Part shown: one piece after another, positions 42,799 to 64,000 of the stretch | Numbering within the stretch: the first letter of the stretch is position 1 | Layout: each line of letters starts with the position of its first letter | From: Desulfovibrionaceae bacterium | GTDB taxonomy: Bacteria > Desulfobacterota > Desulfovibrionia > Desulfovibrionales > Desulfovibrionaceae | Assembly (NCBI GenBank): GCA_009783025.1 | Contig: WRHY01000002.1 | Span: 62,001 to 126,000, forward strand | DNA length: 64,000 nt | Direction: 5' to 3' | Notes under the pieces: model-generated | The model's input: only the letters and a program-made list of their open reading frames with translations | What the model was told of the DNA's origin: nothing | Databases searched by the model: none | Position numbers and translations under genes: made by a program

Positions 42799-42820
42799 CC
42801 ATAAATGGAGGCAACACGCA

Positions 42821-44176: not shown

Positions 44177-44194
44177 ACCTAGACCCTGTCACAA

Positions 44195-44236: not shown

Positions 44237-44251
44237 GAGGGTGTTACGCCT

Positions 44252-46036: not shown

Positions 46037-46455
46037 AAAGATATAGTCTCGTATGTGTTTTTTTATATAGCATGGGATAATTCATGCCTGCATCAACGGA
46101 CTAAAGTACATGGCGGCTGTGAGTCAATATCGCATCATTTTTTCTGTTTGCAAAGGGGGAAATTTCACCGGAAGTACGGAATTTCGCGCTATTTGTGAAA
46201 AGGTACACTTCATGCACAAGAAGGTGCATCCAGGCAGAGGTGCGGCGTACAGGTTTCGTCGCGTCCCGCCGGCATCAGGCAATGGTCTTCCCCTGGTTCA
46301 ACCGGGGGAAGACCAGGGTCGGGGCTCATTAAAGGAGCCCTGGTGTAGAGATAGCTGCAAAAAAATGATAATGTATCCAGGATGATGTAAAAGGCGCCTG
46401 CTGGAAGTGGAAGTAACAGATTGTTCATGCATCGGCCTTGCTTGGAGGCGGCTTT
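46037..46455. promoter_or_regulatory. Structured leader before the TRAP QMP operon
   Basis: About 419 bases between the divergent regulator and dctQ. It has a possible sigma-54 promoter AGGTAC-ACTTC-ATGCA (46201-46216) and, between that and the gene, two hairpins: a strong 13-bp stem (46284-46296 with 46302-46314, loop TTCAA) and GGGCTC/GAGCCC (46322-46340). Neither has a T tract. Such a leader may be a transcript stabiliser or a regulatory structure; no known riboswitch was recognised. Confidence 0.45.
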
Positions 46456-47004: not shown

Positions 47005-48311
47005 TGGAATTTACCTCCGCACATATGGCGTCTATCCTGTTTGGCGTATTCATGCTGCTCCTGGTGATGGGCGTGCCGATTATGGTTGCCTTGGGCATGG
47101 CCGCCATGGCCTGTTTCATGGTGGCAGGCACGGATCTGAATACCATGATCCAGATGGGCGCATCCTCCATGACCGCCTTTCCGCTCATGGCTCTGCCCAG
47201 CTTTGTGTTGGCCGGAGCGCTTATGGAAGCGGCGGGCATTTCACGACGATTGGTGAATATTGCCGAAAATATTGTCGGCACCTTGCCGGGCGGGCTGGCC
47301 GTGTCCACGGCCTTGGCCTGTGTATTTTTTGGATCCATTTCAGGCTCCGGCCCGGCCACCACGGCAGCCGTGGGCATGCTCATGATCCCGGCCATGATAC
47401 GGCGGGGGTATCACCCGGGCTATGCCGCCGCGACAGCGGCCACGGCGGGAGGCATCGGCATAATAATCCCGCCGAGTATACCTATGGTTATCTATGGGGT
47501 GGCCGGACAGCAGTCCATAGCTAAAATGTTTATGGGCGGCATCATTCCCGGCCTGCTGATAGCCCTGGCTCTTACCCTCATCCATTTTTTTCTGTGCCGC
47601 AAGCTCCCTCCGGACGGGCAGGCCTGGTCTTTGCGCGCACTGCTGGACTCCCTGCTAAAAGGCTTCTGGTCTTTGCTCGCGCCGTTGCTCATTCTGGGCG
47701 GTATTTATTCGGGCATGTTCACTCCTACCGAGGCCGCGGTGGTGGCCATTTTCTATACCCTGTTCGTGGGCGTCTTCATTCACAAGGAGCTGACCTTCAA
47801 GGCCATCATGACCTCGCTCAATACCACTTCCTGGCTCACCGGGCGGATTCTGGTAATCGTGTTCACGGCCATCGCTTTCGGGCGCGTCCTCACCGAGTAT
47901 CGCATCCCCATTGAAATAGCCAATTGGATTCTGGGCTATACGGAAAACGTCTATGTGGTCTGGTTCTTTGTCGTCATTCTGCTGTTGTTCCTGGGCATGT
48001 TCATGGAAATCCTGGCCCTCATCCTGCTGGTTACCCCGGTGCTGCTGCCGGTTATGGTGGCCTATGGAGTGGACCCCATCCATTTCGGGGTGATCCTGGT
48101 TTGCTGTTGCGCCATAGGGCTTTCCACCCCGCCGCTGGGAGAAAATCTGTTCATCTCCTCTGGTATTGCCAGAATTGCCTATGAGGATGGAGTCATCAAA
48201 GCTCTGCCCATGGTTTTTGTGAACATACTGCTGGTTACTCTACTGGTGGTCTTTCCGCAACTGGTGCTGTGGCTGCCCAATATACTCATGCCCTCCGTTG
48301 CGGGCGGCTGA
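47001..48311 (+). CDS. dctM: TRAP transporter large permease (DctM), system 2
   Basis: A 436-residue permease with about twelve hydrophobic segments. Signatures: FGSISGSGPATTAAVGMLMIPAMI, GGIGIIIPPSIPMVIYG, SGMFTPTEAAVVAIFY, and IGLSTPPLGENLFISSGIA. It uses a sodium gradient to take up the substrate delivered by the binding protein encoded 50 bases downstream. Confidence 0.92.
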   Translation: MMEFTSAHMASILFGVFMLLLVMGVPIMVALGMAAMACFMVAGTDLNTMIQMGASSMTAFPLMALPSFVLAGALMEAAGISRRLVNIAENIVGTLPGGLAVSTALACVFFGSISGSGPATTAAVGMLMIPAMIRRGYHPGYAAATAATAGGIGIIIPPSIPMVIYGVAGQQSIAKMFMGGIIPGLLIALALTLIHFFLCRKLPPDGQAWSLRALLDSLLKGFWSLLAPLLILGGIYSGMFTPTEAAVVAIFYTLFVGVFIHKELTFKAIMTSLNTTSWLTGRILVIVFTAIAFGRVLTEYRIPIEIANWILGYTENVYVVWFFVVILLLFLGMFMEILALILLVTPVLLPVMVAYGVDPIHFGVILVCCCAIGLSTPPLGENLFISSGIARIAYEDGVIKALPMVFVNILLVTLLVVFPQLVLWLPNILMPSVAGG

Positions 48312-48361
48312 ACAGAAAGCTTTTGCAGTCCGTATTATAACACATTGTAAAAGGAGCACTT

Positions 48362-49369
48362 ATGAAACGCATTACTTTATTGTTGTTAGCCCTGCTCATG
48401 CTGACCGTCGGAGTTGTTTCCCAAGCTCATGCCGCCAAAACACTGAAAATAGCCTTGGGCGATCCTGAAGATTCGGAAATGGGCGTTGTGGGCAATACTT
48501 TCAAGCAGTTTGTAGAAGACAAGAGCAAGGGCGCCATCAAGGTGGACTTGTTTTTTGCCGGAAGCCTTGGGGACGAAACCGAAACCATCCATAACGTGCG
48601 CTCCGGCACCCTGGACTTGAGCTGCGTGGGCATCGCCAATATCGTGCCTTTCGCCAAGCAGATGGGCGTGCTGACTCTGCCCTATATGTTCAGCAATCTT
48701 GATGAAGTCGTGGCAGCCACCAAGGGTGCGCCTTCGGATCTGCTTAACACCTATGCCGCAGCGGCGGGTTTTCGCGTTCTGACCTGGACCTACACCGACT
48801 TCCGCTATATTTCCAATTCCAAGCGGCCCATTATCAAAATGGCCGACATGAAGGGTCTGAAATTCCGCGTGCCCCAGAACGCCATACTTATTGCCGCGAT
48901 CGGCGCTTTTGGCGGCAGTCCGGTACCCATTTCCTGGTCCGAGACTTTCACCGCCCTGCAGCAAGGGGTGGTGGACGGCCAGTGCTACGGCTATATCGGC
49001 TTCAAGGCCATGAAGTTCTATGAAGCCAATCAGAAGTACATCAGCGAATGCCATTATACCTACCAGTTGCAGCCGCTGATTATTTCCGAGCGAATCTTCC
49101 GCGCGATGAACAAGGAAGAGCAGCAGTTGATGATCGACGCCGGCATGGCGGCTCAGGAAGCTGTGCTGAAGTATCAGATCGAGGAATCTGGCAAAGCCAA
49201 GGAACATATCATGCAGGTCGGCGTCCAGATCAGCCAGCTTGAGGATGAGGATGAGTGGAAAAAGGTGGCCATGCAGAAGGTATGGCCGGAAATGGCTGAC
49301 TTTGTTGGCGGCAAGGAGGCCATCAACGCCTTCCTGAAAGCTGCCGGCAAGCCTCAGTGGAATCCCTAA
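48362..49369 (+). CDS. dctP: TRAP transporter solute-binding protein (DctP), system 2
   Basis: A 335-residue periplasmic protein with signal peptide 1-24 (ending AHA). Mature fold features: EDSEMGVVGNTFKQFVEDKSKGAIKV, GSLGDETETIHNVRSGTLDL, and LKFRVPQNAILIAAIGAFGGSPVPISWSETFTALQQGVVDGQCYG, where Arg (in KFRVP) binds the acid group. RBS AAAAGGAG is 5 bases before the ATG. Last gene of the QMP operon, followed by a clear terminator. Probable taurine or isethionate-type ligand, from context. Confidence 0.9.
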   Translation: MKRITLLLLALLMLTVGVVSQAHAAKTLKIALGDPEDSEMGVVGNTFKQFVEDKSKGAIKVDLFFAGSLGDETETIHNVRSGTLDLSCVGIANIVPFAKQMGVLTLPYMFSNLDEVVAATKGAPSDLLNTYAAAAGFRVLTWTYTDFRYISNSKRPIIKMADMKGLKFRVPQNAILIAAIGAFGGSPVPISWSETFTALQQGVVDGQCYGYIGFKAMKFYEANQKYISECHYTYQLQPLIISERIFRAMNKEEQQLMIDAGMAAQEAVLKYQIEESGKAKEHIMQVGVQISQLEDEDEWKKVAMQKVWPEMADFVGGKEAINAFLKAAGKPQWNP

Positions 49370-49446
49370 GCTGGTACAGTTGCCCATTCCTCCGCACAAA
49401 TAGTCACGGAGTGCGATGCTCTGGACTTAAGCATCATAAGATGAAA

Positions 49447-49756: not shown

Positions 49757-49772
49757 TGGTACGAACATTGCT
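49757..49772 (+). promoter_or_regulatory. Sigma-54 promoter of the GRE-activase operon
   Basis: TGGTAC-GAACA-TTGCT: near-consensus -24 (TGGCAC) and -12 (TTGCA) boxes with the right spacing. It is about 115 bases before the activase gene. The spacer 49477-49888 has no gene. Confidence 0.78.
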
Positions 49773-49888
49773 TCATCAAATAGCTCAGCCAGTTTTGTCG
49801 GTTGGAGGCGTCCGGAGCCATGTGATTTTTATAACGCCCGGCTGCTGAGCGGGAAGAGCCAATCGGCGGGCGGACAGCAAAGGTTTTG

Positions 49889-50785
49889 ATGATGCAAAAA
49901 GGCATGGTTTACAACATCCAGCGCATGTCTACCGAAGACGGTCCGGGCATGCGCACAACGGTATTTCTCAAGGGATGTCCTTTGCGCTGCCTTTGGTGCA
50001 GCAACCCTGAATCGCAGAAATTCACCCCCCAACTCATGGTTTTTGAGGATTTGTGCACCGGTTGCGGGCACTGCGCCGAGGCATGCCCTTCCGGGGCCAT
50101 TGTGCGCAAAGGGGACAAGTTCAACCGCGATACCGGCCTCTGTACCGATTGCGGGGCTTGTGTACCCGGCTGCCCGAGCAAAGCCCGCGTCATGACCGGT
50201 GAGGAAATGAGCGTTGAAGAAATCCTGAAGGTCGTCAAAAAGGACGAGCTCTTTTACGCCAACTCCGGCGGCGGCGTGACCATTGGCGGCGGCGAGCCTG
50301 TTTCGAGCGGCGATTTTTTGTTGGATCTTTTGCAGGGCGCCTATGATGCCGGTCTGCATATTTGTGTTGATACCTGTGGTTTCTGCCCGGAGGAACGCTT
50401 CAAAAAGGTGATCGAGCGAACCGATCTGTTCCTGTTTGATTGCAAGCACATGGATCCGGAAAAACACAAGGAAATGACCGGCGTGGATAACGCGCAGATA
50501 TTGGCCAACCTGCGCCAGGCTCTTGAATCCAGGGCGGAGGTGCGGATCAGGATTCCCCTGATGCCGGGCCTAAACGATTCGGAAGAGAATATCGCGGCCC
50601 TGGCGGAATTTTTGCGGCCGTTCAGGCACATGAACGTCGATGTGTTGCCCTATCACGCTTTCGGGCGCAATAAGTATGCGGCGCTCAATCTGGAGCAGCC
50701 GACTATGGAAACCTACGCCCCGGAAGCGCTGAAAGCCGTCCTGGCACTTTTCGAAAAGCATGGCCTCAAGGCCGAAATCGCATAA
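49889..50785 (+). CDS. Glycyl-radical-enzyme activating enzyme (radical SAM)
   Basis: A 298-residue activase that makes the glycyl radical with S-adenosylmethionine. Radical-SAM cluster Cys: CPLRCLWC (residues about 31-38). Next come two ferredoxin-like 4Fe-4S motifs, CTGCGHCAEACP and CTDCGACVPGCP, as in the activases of CutC-, HPAD- and IslA-type GREs but not PFL activase. GGGEP (about 131-135) is the SAM site. Start may be 49889 or 49892; AAAGG is 5 or 8 bases before. No GRE gene is adjacent; the matching one is 9 kb away on the other strand with the same promoter type and enhancer, so it is probably the partner (inference). Confidence 0.87.
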   Translation: MMQKGMVYNIQRMSTEDGPGMRTTVFLKGCPLRCLWCSNPESQKFTPQLMVFEDLCTGCGHCAEACPSGAIVRKGDKFNRDTGLCTDCGACVPGCPSKARVMTGEEMSVEEILKVVKKDELFYANSGGGVTIGGGEPVSSGDFLLDLLQGAYDAGLHICVDTCGFCPEERFKKVIERTDLFLFDCKHMDPEKHKEMTGVDNAQILANLRQALESRAEVRIRIPLMPGLNDSEENIAALAEFLRPFRHMNVDVLPYHAFGRNKYAALNLEQPTMETYAPEALKAVLALFEKHGLKAEIA

Positions 50786-50794
50786 ACAACCCCT

Positions 50795-50817
50795 GGGAGA
50801 GTTCCCGACGCTCTCCC
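50795..50817 (+). promoter_or_regulatory. Intercistronic hairpin before dctP3
   Basis: GGGAGAG/CTCTCCC stem between the activase stop and the TRAP binding-protein gene. No T tract follows, so it more likely stabilises the mRNA of the abundant binding protein than terminates transcription. Confidence 0.5.
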
Positions 50818-50842
50818 CAAACATGCAACAGACGGAGAGAAG

Positions 50843-52156
50843 ATGAAAATTTATGAAGGCTACCCGCATACCACGAGGCGTACATTCCTGAAGGGTTCGG
50901 CCGCCGCGGCTGCGGCACTCTCCCTGGGGGGGCTGCCCGGCATTGCTTCCGCCGCCGAGCCGGCCGCAACCGGCTTGGTGTCGCCGGGGCAAAATCCCTA
51001 CATCACCCAGCTCACGCCCGAAATAATCGCGGATAACAACAAAGGCTGGGTCTATTACGGCGCTGAAAGCGGAACCTCTTTCGGCCCGAATCTGATCAAC
51101 GCCAAAGCGCAGATGAAGCCCGAGGAGTTTGACAAGAACGCTATTGTTCTCAAATGCTCCTGCTACTACCCCGATACCGGCGACATCGGCCACGGCGTCC
51201 ACTGGGAGACCTTCAACTTCCTTGAGCACATGTTTGAAGGCCGCCTGAAGTTCGAGCGTTATTTCGGCCAGTCCCTGCACAGTCTCGCGGACGGCTGGAA
51301 AGCCCTGCGGGCCGGTCTTGTCGATGTCGGCCAGACCTATCACCTGCATAACCAGGGCGCTTTCAACCTGTCCATGGGCGACGGCCTGCCCTTTCTTTCC
51401 AACAGCCAGGTCGTGGCCACCCAGATCATGGAAGAGATGTACCCCAAGTACTTCAAAAAGGAATATGAAACTCAGGGGATGTATCTCGGCTGGATTCCCC
51501 ACTTTGACGTGCAGAGCATTATCTGCACTACGCCCATCCGCACGATGGAGGACCTCAAGGGCAAACGGATTATGGGTTTTGGCGGCGAAGTGCTGCGCGA
51601 CACCCTTATCGCCCTGGGCGCGACTCCCGTGCAACTCCCCACTCCGGACATCTTTATCGGCCTGCAGCGCGGCGTTGTCGACGGCGTGGCCTGGGCCGCC
51701 GGCGGCATCATCCCCTGGCGCTTCCACGAGGTGGCCAAGTACTGCACCATCACCGGTATGTCCCAGACCCGCATCGACTATGGCGTGAACAAGAAAATGT
51801 TCCATAGCCTTCCCAAGGAATTCCAGGAGGAACTCTACTTCAAGTTCCGTCTGGCCGGTAATCACATGTCCGAAGGCTACACCAAGATGGAAGATCGCGG
51901 CTTTGACGACCTTAAAGCGGCCGGCATTGAGATTATCTTCCTGCCCGCGGAAGAAAAGAAGCGCTGGACCGATGTGGGCGACACCGTTTGGGAGCAGTTC
52001 ATCAAGAAAAACGAAGCCAAGGGTCTGCCGGCCAGGCAATTCGCCCAGGACTTCCGGAATGCCGCTGCCAAGTACAACGCCATGTCCATCCGGGAGATCC
52101 GCGAATACGTGCAGGATCCGAAGAACATGATCCACGGCATCGTTGACGGATTCTAA
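50843..52156 (+). CDS. dctP: TRAP solute-binding protein with Tat signal, system 3
   Basis: A 437-residue TRAP binding protein, longer than the usual 330-350. The N-terminus is a twin-arginine signal (TRRTFLKGSAAAAAALSLGGLPGIASA, residues about 11-37), so it is exported folded, perhaps with a bound cofactor or metal. Fold features: WETFNFLEHMFEGRLKFERYF, KALRAGLVDVGQTYHLHNQG, KGKRIMGFGGEVLRDTLIALGATPVQLPTPDIFIGLQRGVVDGVAWAAGG. The usual Arg is replaced in the central segment (GFGGEVL). Likely specific for the GRE substrate. It follows the activase in the same operon. Confidence 0.88.
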   Translation: MKIYEGYPHTTRRTFLKGSAAAAAALSLGGLPGIASAAEPAATGLVSPGQNPYITQLTPEIIADNNKGWVYYGAESGTSFGPNLINAKAQMKPEEFDKNAIVLKCSCYYPDTGDIGHGVHWETFNFLEHMFEGRLKFERYFGQSLHSLADGWKALRAGLVDVGQTYHLHNQGAFNLSMGDGLPFLSNSQVVATQIMEEMYPKYFKKEYETQGMYLGWIPHFDVQSIICTTPIRTMEDLKGKRIMGFGGEVLRDTLIALGATPVQLPTPDIFIGLQRGVVDGVAWAAGGIIPWRFHEVAKYCTITGMSQTRIDYGVNKKMFHSLPKEFQEELYFKFRLAGNHMSEGYTKMEDRGFDDLKAAGIEIIFLPAEEKKRWTDVGDTVWEQFIKKNEAKGLPARQFAQDFRNAAAKYNAMSIREIREYVQDPKNMIHGIVDGF

Positions 52157-52187
52157 ACCGCCGCCGATCACCCCGGCCTATTCTTAC

Positions 52188-52221
52188 CCCGTACCCCGGA
52201 AGCATGCTTCCGGGGTACGGG
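52188..52221 (+). promoter_or_regulatory. Strong intercistronic hairpin between dctP3 and dctQ3
   Basis: A 34-base perfect palindrome (arm CCCGTACCCCGGAAGCA) with no T tract. It may protect the dctP message and lower expression of the membrane subunits. Confidence 0.6.
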
Positions 52222-52296
52222 TGATGCTGGATTTGCGCGTCCGGCCGGACGCGCGCCTGTGCTTATCCGATTTACACCGACAGGGAGTATTATTGT

Positions 52297-52848
52297 ATGG
52301 TTGAACAAAACGCTTCACCCGGCGAGGCTGCGGAAGTCCAGGCCAAAAGCGGGTGGATGAGAGGCGTGGATAAAGTTGCCGACGGCTGTCTCTCCGTCAG
52401 CATGTATGTTCTTTATCCCGCCATCCTGCTGGTCATTTGTATTGACGTAATCGGCCGTAACTTCTTTCACACTCCCCTCTCTTGGGCCATTGAGGGCAGC
52501 GGTCTTTTTCTCATCGGGGCCATCTTTCTGGCCGTACCCAGAGTAGAACTGGACAGGGGCCATATTCTGCTTGATATCCTGTATGCCAGCTATCCCGATA
52601 CGATGAAGTGGCTCTGCGACACGCTGACCCGGGCCTTTGCCTTTCTCTGGATGGTGGGCGCCACCATCCGCAGCGCCATGGAAATTCCCACTGCCTATCT
52701 CCTGAATGAAAGCGGGGCGGACTTCCGCTATCCCTTCTGGCCCATGCGTGTGATCATGACCATCGGCTTTCTGGTGCTTGCGCTGGCGCTACTCTCCAAT
52801 GTTGTTGACTCGTACAGGCATTACCGCCAGGGAGGCCGGAAGAAATGA
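52297..52848 (+). CDS. dctQ: TRAP transporter small membrane subunit (DctQ), system 3
   Basis: A 183-residue protein with four hydrophobic segments (about residues 32-55, 65-85, 106-128, 147-170) in the usual DctQ form, including DVIGRNFFHTPLSWAIEG. Its stop overlaps the dctM start (ATGA). It is the middle part of the system-3 transporter, in the operon headed by the activase. Confidence 0.85.
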   Translation: MVEQNASPGEAAEVQAKSGWMRGVDKVADGCLSVSMYVLYPAILLVICIDVIGRNFFHTPLSWAIEGSGLFLIGAIFLAVPRVELDRGHILLDILYASYPDTMKWLCDTLTRAFAFLWMVGATIRSAMEIPTAYLLNESGADFRYPFWPMRVIMTIGFLVLALALLSNVVDSYRHYRQGGRKK

Positions 52849-54161
52849 CCGAACTTTATATGCTGGGCTACTTGGGCATTTTTGTCATGCTGTTGCTTTC
52901 CGTGATGGGAATGCCCATGGCCTACGCCATGTGCGGGGTAGCCAGCCTGGGACTGTGCTTCACCCTGGGGCCTGTCAACGCGGCTACCCAGACCATGTTC
53001 GTGGCCTGGGAGCAGGCAAGCAACTTTTCCCTCCTGAGTATTCCGCTGTTCATTTTCATGGGCACCATCGCCTACTATACCGGCATTGTGTCTGACCTGT
53101 TCGTGGCTTTCCGGCGTTGGATAGGCTTTTTGCCCGGTGGCCTGGCCGCGGCGGGCGTTCTGGCCGCCGCCGCCTTTGGCGCTGTGACCGGCTCAACCGC
53201 CGCGTCTTCCGCCACCATGGCCTCGACAGTCATACCGGAATTGGAAAAAGCCGGCTACGACCAGGAGCTGGCCGCCGGATCCGTCGCCGCCTCAGGTGGT
53301 CTGGCAGCCATCATTCCCCCGAGCGTGTTCGTCATTATATACGCGGTGCTCACGGACCAGTCCGCGGGCCAGATGTTCATCGCCATCCTTGGCCCCGGCC
53401 TGTTGACCACAGGCCTGTTCGCGCTTTACTGCATTGTCCGTTGCTGCATTACTCCATCCATGGGCCCCAAGCAGCCCAGCGCCACCTGGAAAGAGCGCTT
53501 TGAAAGCTTGCCCAGCGCCATCCCGATTATTATCACCTTTCTCATTGTGGTGGGCGGCATTTATTGCGGCCTGGCCACGCCCACCGAGGCCGCGGCCCTG
53601 GGGGTGGTAGGCGTGATCCTCATTGCGGCCTGCATGCGCCGCATGAGCAAAGAACTGCTTGTTCCGGCCTTCAGGGAAGGGGCCAAGATGAGCGCGGCCA
53701 TTTTCTTCCTGTTTATCGGGGGCTGGCTGATGGCGCGTTTCATGGTCACCACCGGCACCACGCGCCACATGGTGGAGATGTTCGTGGGCGCGCAGATGTC
53801 CTACAACATGCTTCTTTTCTGGATGTTCATCCTGTACCTGATCCTGGGCTGTATCCTGGAATCCACCTCCATCCTGGTCCTGACCATGCCCATCATGTAC
53901 CCTATCACCCAGGCCTACGGGGTTGATCCGGTCTGGTTCGGCGTGTTCGTGACCGTCATGATGGTGCTGGCGGGCATGTCGCCCCCGGTGGGTCTCAACG
54001 TCTTTGTGGTGCGCGGAGTATGTCCGCACATCGGGGTGATGAAGATCTACAAGGGAGCCTTTCCCTTTTTGGTGATGATGCTGATCACCGTTTTTGTGAT
54101 GTGCGCCTGGCCGGATCTCGTCATGGGGCCGGTGCGGAGCATGATGGGCGGTGGTTACTAG
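52845..54161 (+). CDS. dctM: TRAP transporter large permease (DctM), system 3
   Basis: A 438-residue permease with GAVTGSTAASSATMASTVIPEL, GGLAAIIPPSVFVIIYA, CGLATPTEAAALGVVGV and AGMSPPVGLNVFVVRGV. Twelve hydrophobic segments. It completes a PQM set with the Tat-exported binding protein. Regulation by the sigma-54 promoter at 49757 is likely for the whole operon. A hairpin repeat of family R4 follows. Confidence 0.92.
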   Translation: MTELYMLGYLGIFVMLLLSVMGMPMAYAMCGVASLGLCFTLGPVNAATQTMFVAWEQASNFSLLSIPLFIFMGTIAYYTGIVSDLFVAFRRWIGFLPGGLAAAGVLAAAAFGAVTGSTAASSATMASTVIPELEKAGYDQELAAGSVAASGGLAAIIPPSVFVIIYAVLTDQSAGQMFIAILGPGLLTTGLFALYCIVRCCITPSMGPKQPSATWKERFESLPSAIPIIITFLIVVGGIYCGLATPTEAAALGVVGVILIAACMRRMSKELLVPAFREGAKMSAAIFFLFIGGWLMARFMVTTGTTRHMVEMFVGAQMSYNMLLFWMFILYLILGCILESTSILVLTMPIMYPITQAYGVDPVWFGVFVTVMMVLAGMSPPVGLNVFVVRGVCPHIGVMKIYKGAFPFLVMMLITVFVMCAWPDLVMGPVRSMMGGGY

Positions 54162-54169
54162 CTCGCTCT

Positions 54170-54330
54170 TTTGGAGGGACGCTGTCCCTCCAAACCACCC
54201 CGCAAGGGGGCGTGGCCCCCTTGACCCGCAATATTCCTGAAAACAGCGAAGCTGTTTTCAGGGTATGAGGGGTGCAGGGGACTCAGTCCCCTGCCGGGGT
54301 TTGGGGCGGAGCCCCAATTCCGGAGATCCT
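54170..54330. repeat. Hairpin repeat family R4, copy 2
   Basis: Second copy of the R4 set: GGAGGGACGCTGTCCCTCC, AAGGGGGCGTGGCCCCCTT, GAAAACAGCGAAGCTGTTTTC and a GGGGACTCAGTCCCC stem, ending in GGGCGGAGCCCC before the MFS gene. It lies in the same relation to the next gene as copy 1. Confidence 0.75.
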
Positions 54331-54332
54331 TT

Positions 54333-55595
54333 ATGTCCACTCCCTCCTTTTCGCCCGAGCCCGTCCGGTCCTGGTCCGGCATGTGGGTAAGCGTCGCTCT
54401 GGCGAGCATTATTTTGATGGTCGCCTACGGGGTGCGCCTTACTGTCGGGCTGTTCGTACATCCGCTCATGCAGGACAAGGGGCTGAGCATCGGCGAAATC
54501 AGCATTGCTCTGGCCATAGGGCAGATCTCCTGGGGTCTGTTCCAGCCGATTTTCGGAGCCTGGGTGGATAAAGGGCATGCCTTTGCCGCCCTGTTTGTCG
54601 GAGCTTTGTGCCTTATTGGCGGGCAGCTTCTGACCATGGTTTCAGACAACGTCTGGATACTGATACTGGCTCAGGGGCTTTTCTCTCCGGCCGGCATCGC
54701 GGCCGGGAGTTTTGCCATTCTGATCGGCATTGTCGGAGCCCGGCTGGCGCCGGACAAGCGTTCCGTGGCCAGCGGAATCATCAATTCCGGCGGTTCCGTG
54801 GGGCAGTTCGTGTTTGCGCCCGTTGTGCAGTTTTTCATTCATTTGCGTGGTTACTACGCTGCCCTGTTGGTGCTGGCCGGAATAGCCCTGGCCGCCATTC
54901 TGCCCGCCTGGGCACTGTGTAAAAGAAACCCGCCCATAGCTCGCGCTGATAGGATTGAGGCCTGGAGGCCTGAAACCGAACTGTCCAGGGAGAGTTTACG
55001 GGATCAACTACGGGTAGCCATGCGGGATCCGAGTTTTCTGCTGCTGAACGCGGGATTTTTCACCTGTGGTTTTCATGTGGCTTTTCTGGTCACGCACCTG
55101 CCCGGCGAGGTTATTGCTTGCGGGCACGCGGCAACGGTGTCCGCAGCCACCATTTCCCTGATCGGCCTGTGCAATATTGCGGGCAGCATCGGCGCGGGGG
55201 TTCTCGGCAAGTACTATCGGATGAAATACGTGCTCGCGGCCACCTATGCGGCGCGGGCCGTGGTCATTGCTCTGTTCATGTTTTCCAGCAAATCGGTAAT
55301 GGCCTTTTATCTTTTCGCGGCCGCGACCGGGTTTACCTGGCTGGCTACCGTGCCCCCGACAGCGGGCATCGTGGGCAAGCTGTTCGGCCAACGCTATGTG
55401 GCCACCTTGTTCGGGCTGACCTTTTTTACGCATCAAATCGGCGGCTTTTTCGGCGCCTGGCTCGGCGGCGTGGCCATGGAAACAGCCGGAAACCTCATCT
55501 GGGTCTGGTGGGTGGACGTTGCCCTGGCCCTGATGGCGGCTGCCGTGAACCTCCCGATCAAGGAGCAGGCGCCGCAACCTCTTGCCGCGAGATAG
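54333..55595 (+). CDS. MFS transporter (OFA/MCT-like)
   Basis: A 420-residue 12-helix carrier. The loop motifs FGAWVDKGHAFAALF (between helices 2 and 3) and the second-half counterpart LGKYYRMKYVLAATY, and the region INSGGSVGQFVFAPVVQF, place it among MFS monocarboxylate/oxalate-formate type carriers. It is downstream of the TRAP genes and ends in a terminator. It may export the product of the GRE pathway; no substrate can be given. Confidence 0.8.
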   Translation: MSTPSFSPEPVRSWSGMWVSVALASIILMVAYGVRLTVGLFVHPLMQDKGLSIGEISIALAIGQISWGLFQPIFGAWVDKGHAFAALFVGALCLIGGQLLTMVSDNVWILILAQGLFSPAGIAAGSFAILIGIVGARLAPDKRSVASGIINSGGSVGQFVFAPVVQFFIHLRGYYAALLVLAGIALAAILPAWALCKRNPPIARADRIEAWRPETELSRESLRDQLRVAMRDPSFLLLNAGFFTCGFHVAFLVTHLPGEVIACGHAATVSAATISLIGLCNIAGSIGAGVLGKYYRMKYVLAATYAARAVVIALFMFSSKSVMAFYLFAAATGFTWLATVPPTAGIVGKLFGQRYVATLFGLTFFTHQIGGFFGAWLGGVAMETAGNLIWVWWVDVALALMAAAVNLPIKEQAPQPLAAR

Positions 55596-55787: not shown

Positions 55788-57815
55788 ATGCGCTTATCCA
55801 TTACCTCCAAAATTGTCGTGATTACCGTTATCGGGATTGTTGTTGCTTCCATCTCCGTCATGGCCGCAACGACCGTGCTGATGCGCCAGACCTCGGAGGC
55901 TCAGCTCGATGCCTCGGTACGCCAGTTGAGAAGCGTGGTGGAGGCATACTATCAGCTTATCGAAAGTGGTTTCAGTGATAACATCCGGCACGTGTCCGCG
56001 CTCCCTGAATTGATTGAGGCGATGGGTTCCGGGAAATATGACGATCTTGCGCAGTTCAGTACGGATATTATGCATGAGACCAGATCGGACGTGTGCACCA
56101 TTACCGATGCACAGGGCATCGTGGTTGCGCGGGGACATTCGGACAAAAAGGGAGATTCTCTCGCGGGACAGTATATGGTGCGCAAGGCCATGCAGGGAGA
56201 ATCCACATCCGGTATCGTGACCTCCACGGTTGTTCCGTTCTCTGTCCGGGCCACAGCCCCCATTCTCAAGGACGGCAAGGTCATCGGCACCATCGGCCTT
56301 GGCGTGTCCATTGTTACCGAGGACTTTGTGGACAGGCTGAAGCGGCTCTCCGGAATGGACGTGACCTTTTTCCAGGACGATACCCGGGTTATGAGCACTC
56401 TCACCCAGGGGGGCAAGCGCGTAATAGGCACCAAGCTCAACCATCCCGAGATAGAGGAGGCGGTTCTCAAACGCGGGCAGATGGTTTTCCGCGATATATC
56501 CCTTTTCGGTGTTCCCTATAAAACCGTCTACTGGCCGGTTATTGACGTTGAGAAGCAAATCGTCGGCATGTGGTTCGTGGGCAAACCTATTCAGGATTAC
56601 GTCGATGGACAGCGGCAGGCCCTGTTTTGGGGGCTGGCGGGAATGCTGGGCATCACGCTCCTTCTGGCCGGCTTCAGCGTCTTTCTCGGCAGGCGGCTGG
56701 CCCGTCCCATAAAAGAGGTGACGGCCTTTTCCCAGGTTGTTGCCGGAGGCGACCTGAGTGCCCAGCTCCAGGTGCACAGCACTGACGAAGTAGGCGTTCT
56801 GGCCGGAGCTCTGGAAAGTATGGTGGACAACCTGAAGGCCCGCATTGCCGAGGCCGATCAAAAGAGCCAGGAGGCGGCTGAGCATAGCGCAAAAGCGCTC
56901 GCGGCCATGCAGGAGTCGGATGTGGCCAAGGAAAAAGCCGAAGAAGGGAGAAAGGCCCTTCTGGAGGCGGCGCAGAGCGTGGAGCAGGTAGTGGGCCGCC
57001 TGTCCGAGGCCATGGACGAACTGTCAGCCCAAGTTGAGCAAGCCGGTCACGGCGCGGAGTCGCAACGGCAGGCTGTGGCTTCCGCGGCGACCGCAATGGA
57101 AGAAATGAACGCCACGGTGCTGGAAGTCGCCCGCAACGCGGCTGTCGCCTCTGAAGGTTCGAACGGAGCCAGCCAAAAGGCTACCGAGGGAGCGGGTATT
57201 GTCACTGAGTCCATAACCGCCTTGGACCGGCTGCAGAAAAGCGCGGAAAGCACGACCAGGGAGTCTGTTGATTTGGGTAAACAGGCCGAAGCCATTGGTG
57301 CGATTATGTCCGTGATCAACGATATTGCGGATCAGACCAATCTGCTTGCGCTTAACGCCGCCATTGAAGCGGCCCGCGCGGGAGAAGCCGGACGCGGGTT
57401 TGCCGTTGTGGCTGACGAAGTGCGTAAGCTTGCGGAAAAGACCATGCAGGCCACCAAAGAGGTCGGCTCGGCCATCAGCGGCATTCAGCAGGGAACGCAG
57501 CGCAGTATTGACGCCCAGGCTGAGGCCGCGCGCAATGTGCAGGACGCGCAAAAGCTGGCCGCCGCATCCGGCACATCCCTGGAAGCGATAGTGACAGACG
57601 CGCGTGCTGTTGCCGGGCAGATCCAGGCCATTGCGGCTGCCGCTGAGCAGCAATCCGCCTCCAGCGGGGAGATTACCCGGACTCTGGAGCAGATTAATGA
57701 AATGGCGGGAGAAAATGCCGCGGCAATGGCCCAGTCCACTCAGGCTGTCACGGAACTGACCAAACAAACGTATGAACTGCAAGGTCTGGTGCAGCGTCTG
57801 CGCGAGAACGGGTAG
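55788..57815 (+). CDS. Methyl-accepting chemotaxis protein with Cache sensor
   Basis: A 675-residue chemoreceptor. Transmembrane helix 1 (about residues 8-32), periplasmic Cache-type sensor (about 35-275), helix 2 (about 282-303), HAMP (about 303-357, [24 protein letters not shown]), long coiled coil and the signalling hairpin tip [41 protein letters not shown]. No C-terminal pentapeptide for CheR/CheB. It lies between the MFS carrier and the GRE operon, so it may direct cells to the same substrate. It has its own promoter region. Confidence 0.9.
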
Positions 57816-58157: not shown

Positions 58158-59069
58158 TCACTGTAGCGGCGAGTCTTCGGAGGGCAGGACGCTTTCCGGA
58201 GCCGTGTCCATGCCAAGGGCGCTGAGGAGCTGATGCGCCCTGTGCATCAGTTCATTCGCCTTTTCCGCCGCCCCAAGGGCTTCGTAGGCGACAGCCAGGT
58301 TACGCAGGGTAAAGGCATAGTCCGCATTTTCGCCCACGGCCGTTTTCAGGTGGGCCAGCGCGGATTCATAGGCCCGCACCGCATCCTGAATCCTGCCTAT
58401 TCTGTAGTAGGCCTCGGCCATGCCCGCCAGGGCCGCGGCATATTGCGGTCCGGTGGCTTCCGTGCGCGTGTTCTGAAAAACAGCCATGGCCTTTTCCAGA
58501 ATTGCCACGGCTTCGTCCTGTCTGTTAATCTTCAGCAGTACATGAGCCAGATTGACCATAACCGTGGCCGTGTCCAGGGGCACGCCATCCTGCTTTTCCA
58601 GGATGGTCAGCGCCAGTTCGAGATTTTCCACGGCCTCATCATAGTTGCCTAATTCTTCATAAATGGAGCTGACATTGTTGTACACACCGGCCAACCGGTA
58701 ATCATCCTCGGGCAGGTGATGCCGAAAAACGCCGAGCGCGCCGGTGAAAAACTCCAGGGCCCGGACAGTGTTCCCGGCGGCTCTATGGGCCGTGGCCGCA
58801 TTGAGCAGGGTGGTGCCAAAGGGAACCGTGTTCTCATAGCCGAGGGAGCGCAGGATCGCTATGGCCTGATCCCCGGCTTTGATGGACGCGGCATGATCGC
58901 TGATCTTGCGGTAAAAGCCCATCATTTCATTGAGTATGGTAACGGCGGCGTTAAAGTCCTTTTCCGCGTCGGCCTGGTTCAGGCTGTGCAGGAGATGAGC
59001 AGCGATCAGCTCCCTGTCGCCGCTTTTGTATCCGGCGTCCAGCCCCTGGAAAAACGCGTCTATATCCAT
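58158..59069 (-). CDS. TPR protein of the GRE operon
   Basis: A 303-residue soluble protein built of about six tetratricopeptide repeats (residues about 80-285, for example LAGVYNNVSSIYEELGNYDEAVENLELALTIL and ATVMVNLAHVLLKINRQDEAVAILEKAM). No signal or membrane segment. AAGGA is 7 bases before the ATG, 28 bases after the HesB-like selenoprotein gene. TPR proteins hold partners together; with a GRE and two HesB-like proteins a scaffold or assembly role is possible. I know of no GRE operon described with such a gene. Confidence 0.8.
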   Translation of the reverse strand: MDIDAFFQGLDAGYKSGDRELIAAHLLHSLNQADAEKDFNAAVTILNEMMGFYRKISDHAASIKAGDQAIAILRSLGYENTVPFGTTLLNAATAHRAAGNTVRALEFFTGALGVFRHHLPEDDYRLAGVYNNVSSIYEELGNYDEAVENLELALTILEKQDGVPLDTATVMVNLAHVLLKINRQDEAVAILEKAMAVFQNTRTEATGPQYAAALAGMAEAYYRIGRIQDAVRAYESALAHLKTAVGENADYAFTLRNLAVAYEALGAAEKANELMHRAHQLLSALGMDTAPESVLPSEDSPLQ

Positions 59070-59097
59070 GTGAAGTTCCTTATACTTTACCGGAGCG

Positions 59098-59442
59098 CTA
59101 CCGGATAGAGAAGCGCGTAGCCCTGAGGGGCGCGACTTTCCATTCCTTAGGGGTGACCAGGTATCTTCCGTTCGGGTCTACAGCGATGGCAAATTCGCTT
59201 CCATACTGATCAAAAAGCAGCCTGCCGATAACAAAAGGCAGAGCGTCAGCCTCGCCTTGCATGTCATCGTCTTCCAATTCATCGTCTATGCTCAACCTGA
59301 GCATCACCTCGGTATTCGTGCTTCAGCCGCCGCAGCCGCTCCTGAACTCGCGGATGCGCAGCCGCGCGTCGCTGCTCTCTTCCTTTTCCAGGAGGGCGCG
59401 CAAGCCGTCCGCGGCTTCGGAAGTAAGGGAAATCTTGAGCAT
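59098..59442 (-). CDS. HesB/IscA-like protein, probable selenoprotein (in-frame TGA)
   Basis: The reading frame from ATG 59442 (AGGAG 9 bases before) runs 39 residues to an in-frame TGA (59323-59325) and then continues in the same frame to a TAG at 59098: 114 residues in all. The context is SGCGG-TGA-STNTEV. Both sides align with the neighbouring HesB-like protein (59548-59835): RALLEKEESSDARLRIRE and LRLSIDDELEDDD before and after the TGA. Directly after the TGA a hairpin can form (AGCA 59319-59322 with TGCT 59300-59303, extended by CTG/CAG including the TGA, loop with GAGGT), as expected of a bacterial SECIS. HesB-like selenoproteins are known in deltaproteobacteria. The C-terminal CGCG of IscA is absent. 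Confidence 0.8.
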
Positions 59443-59547
59443 GGCCGGTATCTCCTGTTTAAAGCGCAACAAGCCCGCAGCTTCTGCGGCCACGGGCTTG
59501 CGAATTCGGATATGGCTGAACAAAGCCGTCAGCCACCAGCGCGTGGA

Positions 59548-59835
59548 TCAGCCTGCCGCTTCAACCTCGGGCATGCCGTCTTCACCCAGGGTGATAACAA
59601 AATCCAGTCCGTATTGTTCGACAAGTTCCTCGTTGATCACAAAGGGGATGGAATCTATTTCCGCTACGACATCATCATCTTCGCGCTCGTCATCAATGCT
59701 TGCCCGAAGCACTATTCTGGCCTTGCAGGCCGTACCTACTTTTGTCTCGCGGATGCGCACGGCAGCATCGCCGCCTTCCTCTTTCAGCAGGGCGCGGAAC
59801 TTTTCCGCGACGCCGTTGTTCATTTTGACATTCAT
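59548..59835 (-). CDS. HesB/IscA-like small protein of the GRE operon
   Basis: A 95-residue relative of the HesB/IscA fold: FRALLKEEGGDAAVRIRETKVG, IVLRASIDDEREDDD and FVINEELVEQYGLDFVI correspond to the IscA strands. Only one Cys (in GTACKAR) is present and the C-terminal CGCG cluster motif of IscA is missing. It is the second gene of the operon, 85 bases downstream of the GRE, and precedes its Sec-containing paralogue. Possible roles: cluster carrier, small GRE subunit, or redox partner. Confidence 0.8.
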   Translation of the reverse strand: MNVKMNNGVAEKFRALLKEEGGDAAVRIRETKVGTACKARIVLRASIDDEREDDDVVAEIDSIPFVINEELVEQYGLDFVITLGEDGMPEVEAAG

Positions 59836-59919
59836 TTGTTGCTAACCTCTTTTATCAGTTGGGCCGCCGCCGGCGGATTCCCGCAACAGCGGCGGCCGTA
59901 TTTAATGGTATGGTAAATG

Positions 59920-62373
59920 TTATCTCATCTGTTCGTGCTGGGTGCGCTTGATTATTTCGTTCTGTACGCCCTTGTCAAGCCGCGTGAAGTAGGAACTGAA
60001 ACCGGCCACGCGGACCACAAGTTCCTTGTAGTTCTGCGGGTTCTTCTGAGCATCCTTCAGGACTTCGGTATCCACGCAGTTGAACTGGATGTGGCAGCCG
60101 CCGAGGTCAAAGTAGGTCCTGATCAGAGACCACAGGTTGCGGGCGCCGGACGGGCCTGCCAGGAAGGAAGGCAGGAACTTCACGTTGAAGTGGTTGGCGT
60201 TGTACTTCACGGTATCAACGGCCTTGGCCGCGGACTTCATGAGCGCGGTAACGCCTTCCACGTCCGTGCCGGGCATGGCGGATACGCTGGCATCGGTCAT
60301 GGGTTCGCCTCTGCGGCGTCCGTTGGGCAGAGCGGAGGTCAACGGGGCAAAGTAGTTGTGGAAGGACAGGGAGAAGGCATCCATACGGGCTTCGTAACCG
60401 AGGTAGTCGGTGCCGCTGGCGCGATAGATTGCTTCCAGGTCGCGGTACATGCTTTGTATCACGTTGTCCATGTCGGGGTAGTCGTTGCCGTGCTTGGGCG
60501 CTTCAAAGCACATCTTCTGAATTTCGTCATAGCCTTCGAAGTTGGCGGCCAGAGCTTCCAGAAGTTGCTCCATGGTCAGCTTTTTGGTGTCGTATACCAG
60601 GTGCTTGACAGCATACAGAGAGTTGGCCGCGTCCACGCCGCTGGTGGTGATGCACAGGGACTGGGCGTACTTGGGACCGCCAGCTTCCTCGCACAGGCCC
60701 GTTTCCAGGCAGCCTTCAAGCACAGTGGAGCGGAACACGGTGGGCACGATTTCTTCACGGGTGGCGTTGCCGATGTCGCTGATGCGGCGTTGCAGCTTGA
60801 AGAAGTACTTGCTGTGTTCAAGGAAGGCCGCATAGAACTCTTCCCAGGTCTTGATTTCTTTGGGGTCCTTCACCTTGGGGCCAAGCTGCTTCTTGGTGTT
60901 GGTGTCAAGGCCGTCAAAAAGGGTGAACTCAACGAGCTTGGCCAGGTTGGGCTGGCCTTCAAAGGTTATGTAGGAACCCTGACCCTGCTGGCCGGTGCCC
61001 ACGCAGCCGAACACGACACTGTTTGCGCGGGCCTCTTCGATGGTGATGCCGCGCGAGCCGAAACGGGACAGATGACGCGGAATGACCACGTTGGCGTTCA
61101 TGATTTGGGGCATGCCGCTGCCGCCGCGAATGCACTCCACGGCTTTATCCAGTATGGATTGCTTTGTCTTGGGCGTGACGAACAGCACCAGGGCGGGCTG
61201 GATGTTGTTCATGATGATCTGGGTGTCCATGAGCAGTTCTTCAAGCTCGGTGGAAGCGTCTTCGCCGTCAGCGGTGTAGCCGCCCATGGTGAGGGCCTGG
61301 CCGGTGTGACCGGAGAAGGACAGCGCATAAGAGGTGCCCTGGTACACGGCGACTTCCAGGTGCTTGAGGAACTGGAAGCGGAGCAGGGTAATGACCTGTT
61401 CCTTGGTCAGGGTGCCGTTATCAATGTCCTGGCGGTAGTAAGGATACATGTACTGACCGAAACGGCCCGGAGAGACGCCGCAACCGGTCTGTTCGATCTG
61501 GAAGATCAGGTGGGTGAACCAGAACGCTTGCTGGGCTTCACGGAAGTTGCGGGCCGGATGCTCGGGCACATGGCGGCACACTTCGGCGATTTCCATCAAT
61601 TCGGCCTGCATCTTGGGGCAGCTTTCGGTCTTGGCCGTGGCTTCAGCCAGATCCGCATAGCGGTGGGCATAAGTAATGATGGCCTTCAGGACGATCTGGC
61701 AGGCGCGGTAGAATTCCATCTTGTTGTAGTTGGTGGCCTTTTTGGGCAGAGCTTCAAGACGTTCGGTCACTTCCGCCAGAATGCCGGAAATGCCTTTGGT
61801 GATCACCTTGTTGTAATCGGCGGAGCCGGAACCGGTGCTGTTGTCGTTCACCGGATAAATCCAGCCGGATTTTACGAGCAGTTCAGCGTTTTCGCCGTAA
61901 ATTTCTTTGTAGATGGCGTTGGCGCGGTCATAGGTGGTGTTGCCCTTCCACTGCTTGTACACCTGCTTGAGCAGATCCTGGGTTTCCTGCGGAATGCCCA
62001 CTTCGCCGAGGGAGGATTTCGCGGTTGTTTGCGCGGTCATCTTGACCATGTCAAGTTCGTCTTTGATCCAGTTGACCTGCCACTCGGGATACGCATACAC
62101 GCCCGCGCGGAAGCCGGTAATGGTGCCGACGACAGGGTTGTTGTCAAGGAAGATGTCCTTTTTGGTCAGAACGCGCTCAAGGAGTCTGGCGCGCTTGATA
62201 ACGGCCGATTCACCCCTGTATTCCTCATATATCTCCGTGAGGAACTGCAGACGTTGCGGGTCCATCTTTTGGGGGGAATCCATCAGGAACGCCTTGTGAT
62301 CCTTGATGCGCTGATCGGCATTTTCCCAATTCACGGCGCAAGCGCCGGTAGTTTGCATACTGTCCTTTAACAT
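59920..62373 (-). CDS. Glycyl radical enzyme of unknown substrate
   Basis: An 817-residue GRE. The radical Gly is residue 791 in VRVAGFSSYF, and the thiyl Cys is residue 457 in VVFGCVGTGQ. Two residues after the Cys is Gly459, where CutC, glycerol dehydratase, HypD and (from memory) isethionate lyase have Glu as general base. PFL has CC and benzylsuccinate synthase a different motif. The ends (EVYRGES-like N-terminus, VQNEIIKRTQHEQMR at the C-terminus) are of the general PFL2/GRE eliminase type. RBS GGAG is 7 bases before the ATG, and a sigma-54 promoter and enhancer lie upstream. Followed by two HesB-like genes and a TPR gene. Reaction unknown; another C-S, C-C or C-N cleavage is possible. 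Confidence 0.88.
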   Translation of the reverse strand: MLKDSMQTTGACAVNWENADQRIKDHKAFLMDSPQKMDPQRLQFLTEIYEEYRGESAVIKRARLLERVLTKKDIFLDNNPVVGTITGFRAGVYAYPEWQVNWIKDELDMVKMTAQTTAKSSLGEVGIPQETQDLLKQVYKQWKGNTTYDRANAIYKEIYGENAELLVKSGWIYPVNDNSTGSGSADYNKVITKGISGILAEVTERLEALPKKATNYNKMEFYRACQIVLKAIITYAHRYADLAEATAKTESCPKMQAELMEIAEVCRHVPEHPARNFREAQQAFWFTHLIFQIEQTGCGVSPGRFGQYMYPYYRQDIDNGTLTKEQVITLLRFQFLKHLEVAVYQGTSYALSFSGHTGQALTMGGYTADGEDASTELEELLMDTQIIMNNIQPALVLFVTPKTKQSILDKAVECIRGGSGMPQIMNANVVIPRHLSRFGSRGITIEEARANSVVFGCVGTGQQGQGSYITFEGQPNLAKLVEFTLFDGLDTNTKKQLGPKVKDPKEIKTWEEFYAAFLEHSKYFFKLQRRISDIGNATREEIVPTVFRSTVLEGCLETGLCEEAGGPKYAQSLCITTSGVDAANSLYAVKHLVYDTKKLTMEQLLEALAANFEGYDEIQKMCFEAPKHGNDYPDMDNVIQSMYRDLEAIYRASGTDYLGYEARMDAFSLSFHNYFAPLTSALPNGRRRGEPMTDASVSAMPGTDVEGVTALMKSAAKAVDTVKYNANHFNVKFLPSFLAGPSGARNLWSLIRTYFDLGGCHIQFNCVDTEVLKDAQKNPQNYKELVVRVAGFSSYFTRLDKGVQNEIIKRTQHEQMR

Positions 62374-62442: not shown

Positions 62443-62458
62443 AGCAAGGCTCGTGCCA
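62443..62458 (-). promoter_or_regulatory. Sigma-54 promoter of the GRE operon
   Basis: On the minus strand TGGCAC-GAGCC-TTGCT: perfect -24 box and near-perfect -12 box, about 70 bases before the GRE start codon. Confidence 0.88.
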
Positions 62459-62652: not shown

Positions 62653-62776
62653 TCAGGCTGCGTGACACCACGGGGGCCTCTTGACGATGCCCGTTTTCCT
62701 CCCTACTCTAAACGGCACGTTAAGCTTGGGATGCCTGCTTAATGCCGGACCAAACCGCCTGTACCAGGAACATCCG

Positions 62777-64000
62777 ATGTCCACTACCCACAATTTCACT
62801 ACTCCCGAAGCGCTGGCGGAACTTGCTGAAAGCCCCTACACCGGGGTTTTTGAAATGCTGCATACCGGGATAGCCATACTTTCCGCCGGCGGCGATTTTC
62901 TTTACGTCAACAAGGCATTCCTGGAGATGTTCAATCTCCCCGGAGATATCGTCGGCAAGCACGTTTCAGAGTATTTTCTGACCGCCGAACAGGGCGTCAT
63001 GGCCACCATCCGCACCCGTAAGCTGACTCTCTGCTCGAGTGTCACCAAAGATAACGTCCAAGGTGTTTCCTTCAGGTATCCCATACTGGACGCCAATGGT
63101 GAACTCGTCGGCGTCACCATAGAAAGCATTTCCACCAAGCTTGGTGAAGGCAAGCTGCTTTCCCTGTTGGACACGGTGCGCAACCTGGAGGAGCAGGCCG
63201 ACTATTTTGAGCGTAAGTCCCATAAAAAACATGGGATGCTCAGTACGTTCGAGAGCATTGTCGGAGAGTCCGAATCCATGCAGGCCATGAAAAAGCGCGG
63301 CAGACGCTTTGCCCGCAGCATAGAGCCGATTCTGTTGTTCGGGGAGAGCGGCACGGGCAAGGAGCTGATCGCTCAGGCCCTGCACGCGGCAAGCGAGCGC
63401 GCGTCCAAGCCTTTTGTTACGGTCAACTGCGCGGCCTTGCCGCATGAGCTTATGGAGTCCGAACTCTTCGGCTATGAGGCCGGAGCATTCACGGGCGCTA
63501 AGTCCGGAGGCATGAAGGGAAAATTTGAACTTGCGGATAACGGTACGATTTTTCTTGATGAAATCGCTGAGTTGCCTCTGCCCATGCAGGCCAAGCTGCT
63601 GCGCGTGCTGGAGAGCGGAGAAATACAGAAAATCGCTCATCCCGGCCGCCTGCATTCGGATTTCCGCCTGATTGCCGCAACCAACAAAAACTTGGCCGAA
63701 CAGGTGAAGAACGGGAGCTTCCGGGAAGACTTGTACCACAGGCTGAACATCCTGGAACTGACCATTCCTCCTCTGCGCGATCGCATCAGCGATATTCCGC
63801 TCCTGACCCGCTATTTTATCGAACAGAGCCTCGGACACAAGCGGGCCCGTGAGATACACATTTCCAACGAGCTATACCGCGTGTTCGGCCTCTACCCTTG
63901 GCGCGGCAACATTCGTGAACTGAAGAACGTACTGACCTTCGCCCTGTATAACCTGGAGGGCGACGGCGATATTCTGAACATCAATCACTTACCGGATCGT
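62777..64000 (+). CDS. Sigma-54-dependent regulator with PAS domain (GRE module), partial
   Basis: At least 408 residues, open at the right edge of the window. Start ATG 62777 after AGGAA. N-terminal PAS (residues about 18-125, [29 protein letters not shown]) and AAA+ domain (about 160 onward) with [49 protein letters not shown] and [11 protein letters not shown]. No receiver. The C-terminal DNA-binding part lies outside. It is divergent from the GRE gene and close to the shared palindromes, so it is the likely activator of both GRE-module operons in response to a PAS ligand. Confidence 0.9.

Follow-up and report, generated by a model that had tools for sequence, protein, structure and literature searches.

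The 64,000-nucleotide stretch of a Desulfovibrionaceae contig analysed here (the window) carries, at 58-62 kb, a gene for a glycyl radical enzyme (GRE) together with genes for two small HesB/IscA-like proteins, one of them a predicted selenoprotein. GREs catalyse some of the hardest reactions of anaerobic metabolism. The window enzyme falls into a group of 58 related GREs (the clade). The system formed by the clade GREs and the selenoprotein is, judged from the sequences, real and conserved, and it is undescribed as far as our searches reach. The partnership itself, the selenocysteine (Sec), the absence of the Cys-x-Glu glutamate, an invariant additional cysteine (C298) and the sigma-54 sites can all be read from the genomes compared. 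We tentatively propose that the two-cysteine GRE, a radical S-adenosylmethionine (SAM) activase and the IscA-fold protein with its Cys or Sec make up an uncharacterised GRE system, in which the HesB-like protein would act as a dedicated redox partner that resets the cysteines of the GRE.

The locus comprises the following features:

59920-62373, minus strand: GRE, 817 amino acids (aa); Pfam PF02901/PF01228 and motifs
59548-59835, minus strand: HesB/IscA-like protein 1, 95 aa, Cys form (C37); NF033940, conserved beside the GRE
59098-59442, minus strand: HesB/IscA-like protein 2, predicted selenoprotein with the motif CGGU, 114 aa on reading the TGA as Sec (U40); frame conserved through the TGA across loci, structure modelled
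59323-59325, minus strand: in-frame TGA (putative Sec codon) within HesB-like 2, in C-G-G-U
59288-59304, minus strand: hairpin resembling a selenocysteine insertion sequence (SECIS), 6-bp stem ATGCTC/GAGCAT, AGGTT loop
58158-59069, minus strand: TPR protein, 303 aa, lineage-specific accessory; Pfam TPR_12 1e-34

A preliminary description of this DNA had reported an array of GRE, HesB-like, HesB-like selenoprotein and TPR genes. All four are present on the minus strand, head to tail, with intergenic gaps of 84, 105 and 28 nt in that order. The co-occurrence tests described below indicate that the arrangement is not due to chance.

Conservation of the GRE-HesB pairing

The sample consisted of 348 genomes of the order, searched with thresholds of E ≤ 1e-140 for the GRE and E ≤ 1e-6 for NF033940, the family of the HesB-like proteins; loci and genomes are cited below by our numbers (L and G). 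The GRE was found in 55 genomes and NF033940 in 56, and 53 genomes have both (Fisher, 2e-56). G186 and G340 are the GRE genomes lacking an NF033940 match, the GRE match of G340 spanning residues 8-366 only. The apparent cases of NF033940 without a GRE were set aside. In G168 part of a GRE gene lies next to the two HesB genes, where the contig ends, while G308 and G317 gave weak matches only (6e-7 and 2e-7), with no clade GRE in the genome search or in the regions examined. One HesB gene of G308 bears the U-x-G-P motif of TIGR01911.

The association is also seen in gene neighbourhoods. A HesB gene lies on the same strand within 4 kb of 54 of the 58 clade GREs, compared with 1 of 55 other GREs (Fisher, 3e-26). 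One of these 54, the second GRE of L049, has its HesB gene 3.5 kb off, beside the other GRE; without L049 the Fisher value is 4e-25. The clade GREs without a same-strand HesB gene are those of L087 (at a contig end), L132, L121 and L123, and in L121 a Sec-type HesB gene is located about 4 kb away on the opposite strand. Near other GREs, HesB genes occur at the IslA-type GRE of L070 (same strand, downstream of the HesB gene of the clade GRE) and at the CutC-like GRE of L147 (opposite strand). Among the 46 distinct loci studied first, 45 have at least one HesB domain, giving 70 domains (73 including the repeat locus L048); the exception, L087, ends 729 bp past the GRE. Each locus has one to three HesB copies, often with Cys and Sec forms mixed.

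Forty neighbourhood regions were chosen from the GRE matches before HesB genes were sought in them, HesB having already been seen at the first six loci, and 40 control GRE regions were hand-picked among the matches listed. This neighbourhood analysis supports the preliminary description in that the HesB-like neighbours are conserved in other genomes. A protein search with HesB-like 1 returned 9 proteins, the query included, too few to use. No report pairing a GRE with a HesB-like protein was found in a search of the open-access literature (PMC).

The GRE belongs to a clade outside the curated subfamilies

The window GRE matches the Pfam PFL-like (3.7e-149) and Gly_radical (2.1e-29) domains and contains the catalytic cysteine and the RVxG[FY] loop of the superfamily. 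All NCBIfam GRE equivalogs that match do so far under their cut-offs, the best at 478.8 bits against a cut-off of 1100. Comparison with the curated subfamilies IAD, HpsG, HypD, CutC, HpfG, HPAD, PflD and PFL matched it to none of them, which supports the earlier view that the locus fits none of the familiar GRE operons. In the libraries searched, no characterised subfamily with already explained neighbours takes in this GRE, and its neighbours are conserved, the two points on which the preliminary description had made its reading depend. An adjacent Cys-Cys pair is the mark of pyruvate formate-lyase (PFL); in the window GRE, Val follows C457, and the score to TIGR01255 is 73 bits against a cut-off of 994.

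By sequence, the closest solved structure is the B12-independent glycerol dehydratase (PDB 1r8w, 436 bits). The isethionate lyase structures 7kq3 and 5ymr score 341-346 bits. Benzylsuccinate and alkylsuccinate synthases are GREs with small accessory subunits, the benzylsuccinate type being marked by dedicated small Fe-S subunits and by fumarate binding; the window GRE scores 276-288 bits to TutD and MasD and 340 bits to 8iof, all below glycerol dehydratase, and the modelled small protein of our locus has an IscA fold.

The system resembles isethionate sulfite-lyase (IslA/IseG), a GRE known from Desulfovibrio and Bilophila, in its GRE fold, its radical-SAM activase and its sulfate-reducing hosts. 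IslA-type GREs are, however, separate genes in relatives, three genomes containing both these and a clade GRE. They reach 1291-1473 bits to 7kq3, share 31-32% identity with the window GRE, keep the Cys-x-Glu motif and have no HesB partner of their own. We therefore rejected an assignment as isethionate lyase despite the nearby TRAP, alanine dehydrogenase and aminotransferase genes.

Identity to the window GRE is 39-100% across the 58 clade GREs and 27-42% across the others. A FastTree phylogeny of 114 GRE sequences places the 58 clade GREs together with six Cys-x-Gln relatives in a group of 64 with support 1.0. The Cys-x-Gln sister GREs (L122, L115, L124 and L177 among them) have no HesB neighbour within 4 kb. 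Relatives with the same motif lacking Glu, at 57-59% identity, occur in named species, Desulfobaculum bizertense and Maridesulfovibrio ferrireducens among them, so that the idea can be tested.

Predicted active-site residues of the clade

The window GRE has the thiyl cysteine C457 (GCVGTG, with Gly instead of Glu at Cys+2), the extra cysteine C298 (TGCGVS) and the radical glycine G791 (RVAGF). The missing glutamate and the extra cysteine are features that the preliminary description did not include. The GREs of the studied loci were aligned, leaving 113 sequences (58 clade and 55 other GREs) after removal of three repeats: L048 (a repeat of L005), L171 (its GRE is that of L008) and L058_17425 (that of L147). 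Two near-identical pairs of clade GREs from different places were retained. In all 58 clade GREs, Cys occupies window position 298, and the residue at Cys457+2 is Ser, Gly, Ala or Thr instead of Glu. Among the other 55, two (L147 and L149) have Cys at position 298 and keep the Glu, and eight lack the Glu without having that Cys.

Most characterised GREs outside PFL, ribonucleotide reductase and the succinate synthases have a Cys-x-Glu arrangement. The window GRE differs from the glycerol dehydratase, CutC and IslA types in lacking the Glu two residues after the thiyl Cys. Of the functional residues of glycerol dehydratase, H164, H281, E435 and D447 are replaced in the window GRE by Ser, Cys, Gly and Phe, with C298 on H281. 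The latter presumably lines the substrate pocket, although a literature search found nothing on H281. In isethionate lyase, a conserved glutamate is described as required for deprotonation of the substrate hydroxyl (PMC6453916). A GRE without this residue is unlikely to use chemistry of the isethionate-lyase type. Since the Glu has been dropped, a new Cys fixed and a Cys/Sec protein acquired as company, the clade should do different chemistry.

A Sec-containing GRE was considered for the CutC-like enzyme of L149 (G263:C1:3906947-3908896), which has one in-frame TGA. A relative has Gly at that position, so the TGA is probably a nonsense mutation or an assembly error.

An IscA fold without the C-terminal CxC

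HesB-like 1 scores 85.6 bits against NF033940, above the cut-off of 65, and HesB-like 2 falls just under it at 64.1 bits. NCBI names this family ErpA-related iron-sulfur cluster insertion protein. Against Pfam Fe-S_biosyn the two proteins reach E values of 0.21 and 0.0019, neither passing the curated threshold. The model of HesB-like 2 (predicted local distance difference test score, pLDDT, of 88) has IscA, AQ_1857, DsrR and SufA as its nearest folds (PDB 1r94, 1nwb, 2k4z and 2d2a).

A-type Fe-S carriers have three cysteines, including a C-terminal CxC, and DsrR is an IscA-like protein without cluster binding. The C-terminal CxC is absent from all HesB domains (0/73), and a single column has Cys or Sec in 71 of 73 (68 of 70 once the repeat L048 is removed). 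The family hence shares its fold with IscA, SufA, ErpA and DsrR but lacks the cluster-binding motif of A-type proteins. The earlier suggestion that the small proteins carry clusters is weakened as to a classical carrier role. The other suggestion, of extra subunits as in benzylsuccinate synthase, found no family or fold match to such subunits and is in that form unsupported.

The family also differs from the HesB-like selenoproteins of TIGR01911, which are IscA-like and have their Sec in the place of the first HesB cysteine. Members of the family studied here score 13.9-30.3 bits against the TIGR01911 cut-off of 66.35. The two window proteins score 26.4 and 13.9 bits, and the window has UST, not UxGP. 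HesB-like selenoproteins are known in bacteria, Desulfovibrio included, according to two papers (PMC1794560, PMC13188914); the word "glycyl" is absent from the main text of both. A part of the HesB-like selenoproteins thus gains a concrete context from the link to the clade GRE.

Selenocysteine in HesB-like 2

In the alignment column of the TGA, the frame is conserved past a TGA in 37 of 73 domains, Cys is present in 34, and Asp or Arg in 2. Downstream of the codon, 31 of 35 distinct Sec genes versus 5 of 30 distinct Cys genes have a GGY-loop hairpin of 5 bp or more (p = 3e-9, an optimistic value because the hairpin rule was set after the folds had been seen). Plain folding z-scores differ little, with means of -1.0 for Sec genes and -0.3 for Cys genes. 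The hairpin loop starts 18 nt past the codon in nearly all genes and 24 nt past it in the window.

SelB was sought in the 55 GRE genomes of relatives. It was detected above the cut-off in 44 of 45 genomes with a TGA in a HesB gene, the remaining one, G331, giving a partial match. Of the 8 genomes whose HesB genes contain no TGA, 2 have SelB (p = 1e-6; 8e-6 when G331 is scored as SelB-negative). SelB is also present in G186 and G340, the GRE genomes without a HesB match. The assignment of HesB-like 2 as a selenoprotein, already put forward in the preliminary description, is well supported at the level of sequence by the conserved frame, by the hairpin of SECIS type and by the agreement of TGA with SelB in relatives.

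In HesB-like 1 (59548-59835), a Cys form, the TGC codon is still followed by a SECIS-like hairpin, which would fit descent from a Sec gene.

Proposed mechanism and alternatives

In the mechanism that we propose, the activase would generate the glycyl radical on G791, and C457 would become the thiyl. C298 would lie in the active site and, much as in class III anaerobic ribonucleotide reductase (NrdD), contribute to a thiol/disulfide or hydrogen-transfer step. The HesB-like protein would then use its selenol or thiol to reset the cysteine pair and would not serve as an Fe-S carrier. Transcription would proceed from sigma-54 promoters under the divergent PAS/sigma-54 activator, and in the window lineage a TRAP (tripartite ATP-independent periplasmic) transporter would feed in the substrate. 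NrdD combines a glycyl radical with a second cysteine in its active site and draws on an external reductant; it is used here as an analogy of function, and we do not claim membership in that class. A more specific version is doubtful but worth stating: the GRE may carry out net redox chemistry outside ribonucleotide reduction, with its two active-site cysteines re-reduced in each turnover by an IscA-fold selenoredoxin. If this is true, an IscA-like protein has been repurposed from cluster carrying to selenol chemistry.

TRAP genes in the window lineage suggest that the substrate is a small organic anion or zwitterion. The amino-acid permease and TauE/SafE neighbours of other loci fit amino acids or sulfonates, a weak indication.

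Several observations weigh against a dedicated redox partner. G186 has a clade GRE and no NF033940 match, and G187 has a second clade GRE that lacks a HesB gene of its own. The clade is a single lineage, so its members are not independent events in the Fisher tests. The tree split holding exactly the 58 clade GREs has a support of 0.47 (1.0 for the 57 without L120). Thirty-six loci have at least one Sec form, and 9 of 45 have Cys forms only, so Sec is dispensable. Only the alignment to H281 of glycerol dehydratase puts C298 in the active site. Finally, no thioredoxin or disulfide reductase is found among the annotated conserved neighbour clusters, rarer neighbours not having been annotated.

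The HesB-like protein could instead deliver or repair the iron-sulfur clusters or iron of the activase, in a specialised role akin to that of A-type carriers. The IscA fold and the NCBI family name point this way, as do the activase cluster found in 39 of 46 distinct loci and the extra ferredoxin-like cysteines in the activase sequence. Set against these are the lack of the C-terminal CxC in all 73 domains, with one conserved Cys/Sec left, and the near absence of such a partner beside other GREs (1 of 55 on the same strand and 1 on the opposite strand), several of which have their own activase. Sec would also be an unusual cluster ligand. On balance we regard this role as unlikely.

A different possibility is a protective or repair function: the HesB-like protein would look after the glycyl radical or the active-site cysteines following oxygen exposure or inactivation, without being needed in each turnover. 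Selenol chemistry suits thiol repair, and a putative redox protein of the C_GCAxxG_C_C type occurs in 8 loci (one representative annotated). Other GREs should be oxygen-sensitive too, yet nearly all of them lack HesB, and the association is with the clade marked by C298 and the missing Glu, not with GREs at large. Such a repair function appears improbable.

We give similarly little credence to a structural subunit, or a carrier of substrate or product through its Cys/Sec, as GrdA is in glycine reductase, that donates no electrons. Tight linkage and small size recall the accessory subunits of other GREs, and Sec can act as a nucleophile; but family and fold searches gave no tie to known GRE small subunits, and one to three copies per locus, often a Cys/Sec mix, fit poorly with a fixed subunit. 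By far the least probable reading is that the GRE belongs to a known subfamily, as an ordinary dehydratase or lyase, and that its neighbours are incidental. Its superfamily domains and activase are standard, and glycerol dehydratase is its best solved match at 436 bits, but the matching equivalogs are far below their cut-offs, the Glu is absent in all 58 clade members and the neighbours are conserved.

Sigma-54 sites, activase and transporters

The predicted regulatory and transport features are as follows:

62444-62458, minus strand: sigma-54-type promoter, exact TGGCAC-N5-TTGC, upstream of the GRE
62681-64000, plus strand: divergent PAS/sigma-54-dependent activator, cut by the window end, true start possibly a later ATG; Pfam Sigma54_activat 4.4e-65
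49757-49771, plus strand: sigma-54-like site, 1 mismatch, upstream of the activase/TRAP operon
49886-50785, plus strand: GRE activase (radical SAM), 299 aa, taken as cognate; TIGR02494 358.6 bits
50843-52156, plus strand: TRAP solute-binding protein DctP, twin-arginine translocation (TAT) signal; Pfam DctP 2.5e-31; near the GRE in L001, L003, L053 and L055
52297-52848, plus strand: TRAP small permease DctQ
52845-54161, plus strand: TRAP large permease DctM
54333-55595, plus strand: major facilitator superfamily (MFS) transporter; syntenic with the block in L001 and L003

TGGCAC-N5-TTGC is the sigma-54 consensus. The 64-kb window contains only three sites of this type, the two listed here among them, and about seven were predicted by shuffles, so the weight lies on the placement of the sites and not on their number. 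Of the 57 clade GREs with enough upstream sequence, 47 have a site with no more than 1 mismatch; the figure is 18 for the 55 other GREs and 3.8% for 2000 random windows. The sigma-54 activator cluster is present in 37 of 46 distinct loci.

The activase and TRAP genes are located about 3-8 kb from the GRE unit and are tied to it by synteny in relatives and by the sigma-54 sites. In L001 and L003 the order GRE, HesB-like, TPR, MFS, DctM, DctQ, DctP, activase is that of the window. TRAP genes and the activase are near the GRE in L053 and L055, and the TRAP genes are more distant in L129 and L131. Many other loci have, nearby and instead of TRAP, an amino-acid permease (21 loci) and a TauE/SafE protein (23 loci). 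Gene order was taken from a simple open reading frame caller, which produces some antisense artefacts, and one representative was annotated per neighbour cluster. The activase/transporter block and the sigma-54 activator appear to belong to the same unit as the GRE and HesB genes. The span first drawn around the locus correctly included the four genes and omitted the block at 49886-55595 and the activator from 62681 onward.

We also attempted to derive the DctP ligand from similarity to PDB entries; the best match scored 64.5 bits, and no ligand was inferred.

Other neighbours

The TPR gene, which the preliminary description had counted within the operon, has homologues in 4 of 46 distinct loci, the window included, and another TPR cluster occurs in 3 more. 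We rejected it as a core component on these counts, and its distribution marks it as a lineage-specific accessory.

DUF4125 was likewise rejected as an exclusive partner, since it occurs in 62 of the 293 genomes lacking the GRE as well as in 45 of the 55 that have it. It lies near the clade GRE in 19 distinct loci (L001:14405-15028 and L084:15778-16326 among them) and also near other GREs (G253:C19 at 38959 and G239:C28 at 1152528). Its model is all-helical (pLDDT 91), and no PDB fold match has an E below 2. DUF4125 may be GRE-related. DUF169 proteins occur in 7 loci and C_GCAxxG_C_C proteins in 8, with L067, L074 and L077 among the loci that have these; one representative of each was annotated.

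Scanning the window for Rfam families and tRNA genes yielded no match. Beside the activase operon, at 41662-49370, the window contains an alanine dehydrogenase, a class III aminotransferase, a sigma-54 activator and a second TRAP transporter, whose solute-binding gene was judged by position only. These genes could serve a related amino-substrate pathway. Between the two operons, at 55788-57815, lies a gene for a methyl-accepting chemotaxis protein with a Cache sensor domain, which might sense the substrate.

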